Positions 146 through 768 of a stretch of 7,857 nt of DNA are shown in pieces. The stretch comes from Candidatus Lithacetigena glycinireducens. GTDB lineage: Bacteria; Coprothermobacterota; HKB111. The DNA lies in assembly GCA_018725485.1 (NCBI GenBank), contig QLUP01000044.1, forward strand, positions 1-7,857, read 5' to 3'. Under the pieces are notes generated by a model. It made no database searches, was not told the origin of the DNA, and saw only the letters and a program-made list of their open reading frames with translations. The position numbers were made by a program, and so were the translations under genes. Each line of letters starts with the position of its first letter. The first letter of the stretch is position 1.

Positions 146-173
146 TTGACAAAAGTATATAATTAAGTAATAA
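146..173 (+). promoter_or_regulatory. Sigma-70-type promoter of the arsR-like unit
   Basis: A perfect -35 hexamer TTGACA lies at 146-151. After a 16-base spacer, TAATAA at 168-173 serves as the -10, placing transcription start about 15 bases before the ATG at 195. A closer TATAAT at 158-163 sits only 6 bases from the -35 and cannot pair with it. The -10 is embedded in an inverted repeat at 163-178, the expected layout for autorepression. Confidence 0.55.
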
Positions 174-178
174 CTTAA
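163..178. promoter_or_regulatory. Palindromic operator, probable ArsR-family binding site
   Basis: TTAAGT at 163-168 and ACTTAA at 173-178 form a perfect 6+4+6 inverted repeat around AATA. It overlaps the -10 element and lies 17 bases before the start of the repressor gene. ArsR/SmtB repressors are homodimeric winged-helix proteins that bind short AT-rich palindromes in their own promoters, so this is the natural autoregulatory site. The palindrome is seen; the binding is inferred. Confidence 0.55.
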
Positions 179-194
179 ATATTCGGAATGTTTA

Positions 195-515
195 ATGAGT
201 GAGTTAGCAATTATATTAAAAACCATAGCTGATGAAACGAGGTTTCAAATCCTGAATCTTTTACTAACCAAGGACTTTTGCGTAGGGGCTTTAGCTAAAC
301 AACTTGGTTTATCTGAGGCTGCTGTATCACAACATCTACAGATATTGAGAAAGGCTGGCATAGTAACCGGAGAAAAAAGAGGATACTATACACATTATGG
401 TGTGAATAGAGAGATACTTAAGAAAACTGGGGAAAAAATGATAGAACTATCCTCTCAAAATCATCAATGCCACAATAATTGTCCGAAATCCTCATTAGAG
501 GAACATAAATCTTAA
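195..515 (+). CDS. ArsR/SmtB-family metal-responsive repressor with Cys/His-rich tail
   Basis: This 106-residue protein has the compact winged-helix fold of ArsR/SmtB repressors, which leave operator DNA when they bind a metal or metalloid. The family opening ADETRFQILNLL is at residues 12-23. The recognition helix region covers about 31-55 (GALAKQLGLSEAAVSQHL then LRKAG), with a wing near 58-70. Classical ArsR carries a CVC metal motif in the third helix; here only Cys29 (FCVGAL) remains. The tail adds a second cluster, His90, Cys92, His93 and Cys96, so a site combining Cys29 with tail cysteines is plausible. The ATG at 195 fits the family N-terminus; an ATG at 188 stops after four codons. 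It lies just after a promoter and palindrome and 18 bases before a cysteine-rich microprotein gene. The inducing metal cannot be read from sequence, so no symbol is given. Confidence 0.9.
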   Translation: MSELAIILKTIADETRFQILNLLLTKDFCVGALAKQLGLSEAAVSQHLQILRKAGIVTGEKRGYYTHYGVNREILKKTGEKMIELSSQNHQCHNNCPKSSLEEHKS

Positions 516-533
516 AAAAGGAGGGTTTAAAAA

Positions 534-644
534 ATGTGTGAAAACAAGTGTCCGAAACCTGAATTAAGGCCCAAAGACGGTAAGTGTAGCGAAGAACAGA
601 TTAAAGAGTGTCACCCAGAAGAAAAAACTCACCCCTGCAAATAA
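534..644 (+). CDS. Cysteine/histidine-rich microprotein, putative metal-binding partner of the repressor
   Basis: A 36-residue frame starts at ATG 534 and stops at TAA 642-644. It is preceded 8 bases upstream by a near-perfect Shine-Dalgarno AAGGAGGG (518-525), strong evidence that it is translated. The peptide has five cysteines (2, 6, 18, 26, 35) and two histidines (27, 33), spaced C-x3-C, KCSEEQIKECHP and HPC, and is rich in Lys, Glu and Pro with no hydrophobic segment. A small cytosolic metal-binding or metal-buffering peptide is the obvious inference. Residues 2-11 (CENKCPKPEL) align with residues 92-101 of the upstream repressor (CHNNCPKSSL), including an identical 9-base stretch, so the two probably share a metal-site module. 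It is almost certainly co-transcribed with the repressor. I do not know a named family for it. Confidence 0.7.
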   Translation: MCENKCPKPELRPKDGKCSEEQIKECHPEEKTHPCK

Positions 645-658: not shown

Positions 659-716
659 AAGATGAGATTGCCGCGTCGCCATTACAGGCTCCTCGCAAGG
701 AGAATTTCAATTGTCG

Positions 717-736
717 CTCTGGACTCCGATCCAGAG
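717..736. repeat. Inverted repeat (7-bp stem)
   Basis: CTCTGGA (717-723) and TCCAGAG (730-736) are perfect inverse complements with a 6-base loop. The T-run at 742-747 is only loosely placed for termination. It forms part of the dispersed-repeat mosaic. Confidence 0.5.
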
Positions 737-768
737 TCTCGTTTTTTAAGGCACAAGGAAAAGCGGAG

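Follow-up and report, generated by a model that had tools for sequence, protein, structure and literature searches.

Judged by its conservation, a 36-codon reading frame directly behind an ArsR/SmtB-family repressor gene is a real gene that belongs to an uncatalogued family of small proteins conserved across many anaerobic bacteria. It lies in the analyzed stretch of DNA (the window, 7,857 nt; contig QLUP01000044.1 of Candidatus Lithacetigena glycinireducens). The regulator itself is an ordinary ArsR; the new element is a conserved, partly nested microprotein. Both frames lie exactly where the initial annotation had placed them, the second behind the Shine-Dalgarno sequence that it had noted, and its view that the microprotein is a genuine gene, easily missed, was borne out by conservation in relatives from many phyla.

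Table 1 Features of the window and of related loci (locus prefixes denote relatives).
Feature	Position	Strand	Basis or remark
Palindrome TTAAG-TAATAA-CTTAA resembling an operator, probably the site of ArsR autoregulation	163..178	.	conserved in clade
ArsR/SmtB-family repressor, 106 aa	195..515	+	Pfam PF01022, NCBIfam NF033788, tree
Two in-frame TAA stops, 513-515 and 528-530 (..EEHKS*KRRV*KM..)	513..530	+	sequence; reads through in 24 fused loci
Shine-Dalgarno AAGGAGG	518..524	+	9 nt before peptide ATG
Cys/His microprotein, 36 aa, MCENKCPKPELRPKDGKCSEEQIKECHPEEKTHPCK	534..644	+	family conserved under purifying selection; matches nothing in Pfam, NCBIfam or PDB
Terminator-like stem-loop with T-run, probably closing the two-gene unit	716..745	+	
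PadR with Cys/His-rich N-terminus directly before microprotein	L180:1962-2497; L181:1437-2095; L182:2027-2614; L183:3113-3648		

The window peptide contains five cysteines (residues 2, 6, 18, 26 and 35) and two histidines (27 and 33). Scanning one genome per species, we obtained 176 stretches encoding relatives and kept the best-scoring 80, to which the proportions given below refer. Their hosts belong to the Planctomycetota, the Thermodesulfobacteriota and other 'Deltaproteobacteria', the Bacillota, Chloroflexota and Armatimonadota and several candidate phyla. The family follows the pattern C-x12-C-x7-CH-x5-HPC with a glutamine four residues past the second cysteine. The window peptide shows the CHPC core pattern, with the gap between the first two cysteines shorter by one residue. 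In window numbering, every aligned copy (best 80 of 176) has C6, C18, Q22, C26, H27, H33 and C35, with variable residues between the ligand-type cysteines and histidines, and a cysteine at residue 2 is found in 86%. The core evolves under purifying selection (dN/dS ~0.18, 35 disjoint pairs), and most relatives have the same Shine-Dalgarno motif at a spacing of 5–10 nt. Conservation next to the same type of repressor, with fixed cysteines, was the test that the initial annotation had set for its proposal, and the family passes it: its cysteines and histidines are fixed, and 67 of the 80 copies stand by an ArsR gene.

Searching 193 related genomes turned up several homologs, and the stronger of these were mostly located right after an ArsR gene. 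In evenly drawn samples from two phyla, the peptide occurred in 29 of 395 genomes of one and 11 of 246 of the other. No second genome with the peptide was found in the window's genus or phylum among the genomes searched, which suggests that the window copy may have been gained horizontally. Pfam, NCBIfam and PDB yielded zero matches for the window peptide or four homologs, the family profile had no PDB match, and a plasmid search gave no match. Literature searches for the core peptide strings, for TsoR together with ArsR and for nested or paired peptides returned nothing relevant among open-licence papers. The AlphaFold model of the peptide has a mean pLDDT of 65 and no confident fold. Tandem duplication of the peptide module inside one protein was seen in L047, L067, L078, L088, L093, L096, L101, L104, L109, L114, L115 and L118, with three copies in L067.

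The window ArsR has the ArsR-type winged HTH, matching HTH_5 (PF01022; 6e-15, 55.3 bits, cut-off 22) and HTH_metalloreg (NF033788; 78.3 bits, cut-off 55). It scored under the cut-offs of the named NCBIfam subfamilies CmtR (48.5/150 bits), BigR (41.4/155), TsoR (40/115), SdpR (62.7/100) and Rv2640c (59.9/155). AlphaFold predicted a good fold for the ArsR part, and the nearest solved folds include NolR, HlyU and the metal sensors CzrA and CadC. The classical CVC metal site is missing; as had been noted initially, only one of its cysteines is present (C29-V-G, within FCVG) and the tail is rich in histidine and cysteine (H90-Q-C92-H93-N-N-C96). Because the site is absent from many accepted members, this limits the subtype but not the assignment to the ArsR/SmtB family. 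Among the partner ArsRs (67 pairs, from the best 80 of 176 relatives), 40 have CVG, 20 CVN and one CVC. ArsRs of the window's clade keep a single tail cysteine (C96 of L049), followed mostly by Leu/Phe/Ile and Arg/Lys, and C96 of the window corresponds to it by position. Nine ArsRs of the other clade have no tail cysteine.

The initial annotation had further read the start of the peptide and the repressor tail as copies of one duplicated metal-binding module. The similarity is as described, with 21 of 30 bases identical including the 9-base run TGTCCGAAA, and it reached a nominal codon-shuffle P of ~0.001 in a region picked by eye. However, neither it nor the C-x3-CPK-x2-L resemblance recurs in the other 66 ArsR-peptide pairs. 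As P ≤ 0.05 was reached in only 3 of the 67 pairs, which equals chance expectation, we dropped the duplication and regard the similarity as a lineage quirk or coincidence.

Where the peptide follows ArsR (67 of 80 loci, counting the window and its homologs among the best 80 of 176), the two occur as separate genes, as out-of-frame overlapping genes (25) or as an in-frame fusion (24). The two window genes also share one common reading frame, which the initial annotation had not mentioned: two TAA codons interrupt it in the window and it is open throughout in the 24 fused relatives. The distance from the tail cysteine C96 to the methionine of the peptide is 17 codons in the window versus 16 in L058. 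In a tree of ArsR proteins (65 rows), the window groups with the fused proteins in a clade of 15 rows, of which 12 are fused (support 95/91); its two genes are thus a split counterpart of the related fusions. ArsRs of the other clade usually have a free peptide, with one fused exception, L065.

All 24 fused loci have an internal Shine-Dalgarno sequence and a start codon just before the peptide part. With start codons elsewhere in frame as controls, matches of at least four bases occurred at 24 of 24 of these starts versus 17 of 150 controls, and matches of at least six bases at 18 of 24 versus 1 of 150; the loci are related and not independent, so that Fisher values overstate the significance, and the start codons were picked partly by Shine-Dalgarno strength, which favors the signal. 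The methionine column of the fused set is invariant in 20 aligned proteins. In most fusions the internal signal encodes Glu-Arg-Arg, but it is written in other codon phases in some, for example in L116, L081, L065 and L186, which argues that the nucleotides and not the amino acids are conserved. Within the 24 signal bases of the fused genes, 33 of 36 arginine codons are AGG, compared with 55 of 209 elsewhere. Indirectly but strongly, this points to the fused genes being nested genes with two products. The cysteines that never vary among the fused proteins lie in the HTH part (C29), the tail (C96) and the peptide; in the AlphaFold model of a fusion, the linker and peptide parts were not confidently placed on the ArsR domain. 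Two loci, L072 and L097, show ArsR just after the peptide. In L005 (G032), the C-terminus of ArsR resembles a degenerate microprotein (CLCQGNKNCHGPEELQN..KCHGEAKN), perhaps a decayed fusion.

Upstream of the window ArsR lies TTAAGTAATAACTTAA, a palindrome that is nearly perfect overall and whose 6-base arms match completely. The motif TTAAG-N6-CTTAA precedes ArsR genes of the window's clade exactly in 10 of 26 cases and with at most one mismatch in 20 of 26 (shuffles: 0.0 and 0.3), and in the other ArsR clade TTAG-N6-CTAA was found in 11 of 40 (shuffles: 0.1). By this conservation, the window ArsR has an operator-like palindrome at its own promoter, and the palindrome is probably an autoregulatory site. 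Five further one-mismatch sites in the window genome equal the control number, and none of the three inspected lay clearly before a transport gene. At the other end, the terminator-like element indicates that the unit probably comprises only ArsR and the peptide; two tRNA-Met genes and a tilS-like gene follow. Pieces of the intergenic region at 655-870 are repeated at five other places in the genome, with 88–93% identity over 29–47 bases.

A second regulator family is also paired with the peptide. PadR genes precede it in six loci (L102, L108, L142/L181, L146/L180, L147/L183 and L167/L182); three of these PadRs matched Pfam PF03551 (7.6e-18, 2.6e-16 and 1.3e-16), and the others matched the first of them by sequence. 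The PadR partners have a Cys/His-rich N-terminal stretch of their own, and several PadR-peptide gaps are only a few bases. In L146/L180 the peptide begins ~2 nt behind the PadR frame and is followed by an ABC-2 exporter. PadR and ArsR are separate families that have in common only a winged-helix type DNA-binding domain; the window has ArsR. Their likeness lies in the peptide that follows them, six copies in the case of PadR, and in one such operon the same ABC-2 exporter pair comes next.

Of 79 loci, 48 continue in the same direction into genes for an ABC-2 exporter (PF00005 and/or PF01061). Other loci contain ArsP_1 permeases, TauE/SafE, MFS_MOT1, ACR3/SBF-type carriers, chromate transporters, an ArsM-like methyltransferase or a heavy-metal-resistance protein. 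About ten ArsR-peptide pairs, including that of the window, have none of the transporter types searched alongside. In the window genome (83% complete) ABC-2 matched only weakly, ArsP_1 only as a fragment below threshold, and chromate transporters gave no match.

The peptide comes after ABC-2 exporter genes in L148, L153, L154 and L165, and about a dozen copies (among the best 80 of 176) have neither ArsR nor PadR alongside. Microproteins without a nearby ArsR were seen in L057 and L063 (Phycisphaerae) and in L092 and L117 (Dehalococcoidia); that of L057 is downstream of an ABC-3 (zinc-type) permease, and those of L092 and L117 precede a cold-shock protein gene. The microproteins of L175, L176 and L178 lie near genes recognized by eye as NifX-like, DUF134-like, FmdB-type zinc-ribbon or Mrp-type, hinting at roles wider than resistance operons. 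Just upstream of an ABC-2 exporter and the microprotein gene, L175 (2585-3187) and L177 (1453-2157) have a peroxiredoxin-like gene whose catalytic position is occupied by an in-frame TGA, read as FTFV-TGA-PTE in L175 with the same break in L177; this TGA probably encodes selenocysteine.

We propose, with about even confidence, that ArsR and the peptide form an autoregulated operon in which the peptide would be an induced carrier or buffer of the ligand sensed by the regulator. Repression, ligand identity, metal binding, the carrier role and contact with ArsR are what we infer in this model. ArsR would bind the palindrome and repress its own operon until its cysteines capture a thiophilic metal or metalloid (arsenite-like, another soft ion or a thio-anion) and it leaves the DNA. 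The microprotein would be made from the same mRNA via its own ribosome-binding site and, as its Cys/His pattern suggests, bind this ligand through the four invariant cysteines and two invariant histidines. It would then buffer the ligand, hand it to the exporter where an exporter gene follows, and possibly also act on the regulator, to which relatives join it covalently.

For this carrier or buffer reading speak the invariant C, C, CH, H, C residues under purifying selection, the ArsR beside 67 of 80 copies and downstream in two more loci, the conserved operator-like site and the fusion in 24 loci. The ABC-2 exporters and the other transporter genes elsewhere, the pairing with PadR, itself Cys-rich at its N-terminus, and the metal sensors CzrA and CadC among the nearest folds of the ArsR part point the same way. 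Against it stand the lack of an exporter beside the window pair with only weak transporter matches in its genome, the peptide model without a confident fold and the dozen or so copies without ArsR or PadR. The toxic metal or metalloid sensed by the repressor is probably also handled by the microprotein. The neighbors suggest arsenicals, chromate, molybdate or sulfur oxyanions, or soft metals, and the ligand is not fixed, since the transporters point to different substrates.

A serious competitor, which we consider less likely, is that the microprotein is a sensory subunit of the regulator. As a separate protein it would provide in trans, and as a fusion in cis, the cysteines missing from a CV[GN] ArsR (or PadR), and regulator and peptide would together form the ligand-responsive unit. 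The partner ArsRs indeed keep only the first cysteine of CVC (CVC in 1 of 67), nine ArsRs of the other clade lack any tail cysteine, and the 24 in-frame fusions, the transfer of the peptide to the unrelated PadR family and the ten or so operons, including that of the window, that seem to consist of ArsR and peptide only fit such a role. Yet the fused genes keep an internal ribosome-binding site, implying that the free peptide is needed too, the modeled linker and peptide were not confidently placed on the ArsR domain, and some copies have no regulator nearby. We judge it improbable that the peptide serves sulfur or redox chemistry, such as persulfide or sulfide handling, with a thiol switch of the SqrR/BigR kind in place of a metal sensor. 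The BigR-type matches are far under the cut-offs (41 versus 155 bits) despite a weak similarity of the HTH to that model, and metal ligation is the better match for the two invariant histidines, of which one is right after a cysteine and the other within HPC. TauE/SafE-type neighbors in several loci would agree with sulfur chemistry, as would the many hosts that are sulfate reducers or other sediment anaerobes by their sequence-record titles, and the conserved HTH and tail cysteines could form a disulfide or polysulfide; however, ArsP_1, ACR3-like, heavy-metal-resistance and chromate transporter genes are present as well.

The position of the window inside the fused clade, with two genes in one frame and two stops between them, could also mean that the full-length ArsR-peptide protein is the only product of the fused genes that counts, that the internal Shine-Dalgarno sequence is a relic and that the window peptide is a degraded tail left from a regulator that was once fused. 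This is very unlikely: the signal and start codon occur in 24 of 24 fusions versus 17 of 150 controls and not always in the same codon phase, ArsRs of the other clade (except L065) and PadRs are normally accompanied by a free peptide, and the window copy retains every invariant cysteine and histidine and a strong ribosome-binding site of its own. A chance open frame, which a length of 36 codons alone would not exclude, has virtually no probability left; 176 homologous stretches with fixed cysteines and histidines, a dN/dS of 0.18 and conservation across many phyla refute it.

Beyond the carrier or buffer reading, we tentatively consider, with clearly less than even confidence, that a transferable Cys/His microprotein may serve as ligand-sensing or ligand-delivering partner of both ArsR and PadR, and that one gene of an ArsR clade may yield a fused sensor and a free peptide via a conserved internal start. 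The family adds an uncatalogued, widespread group of small proteins with clear residues and arrangements to metal-type regulation, and its occurrence beside PadR suggests that it is not an appendage of ArsR but a partner of more general use. The nested ArsR-peptide gene, if true, would be a compact case in which a single gene supplies both a sensor and a free carrier. Gene callers likely overlook such peptides, and nested copies would normally be annotated within the longer gene only.

With ArsR/SmtB regulators of the CzrA, CadC and AfArsR type, the window ArsR shares the winged-helix repressor domain, an upstream palindrome, probably autoregulatory, and cysteines placed both in the C-terminal tail and at the classical site. 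In AfArsR, As(III) is bound by three cysteines in one short stretch (PMC11212059). The window ArsR differs from this type by CV[GN] in place of CVC and by its tail cysteine. In the open-licence papers searched, a co-encoded or nested Cys/His microprotein is undescribed for these regulators. Metallothioneins and small metallochaperones are very short and Cys-rich, as is the peptide, which is also apparently co-regulated with a metal-type regulator. Unlike them, it has few cysteines (four in the core plus N-terminal ones), two invariant histidines and a fixed pattern, and it matches no Pfam or NCBIfam model. In-frame internal starts that yield a short second product are known in various bacterial genes, and the fused loci resemble these in that a longer frame contains a second start preceded by a ribosome-binding site of its own. 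The difference, as read from sequence, is that the short product here is an independent family that also occurs as a separate gene and beside PadR.
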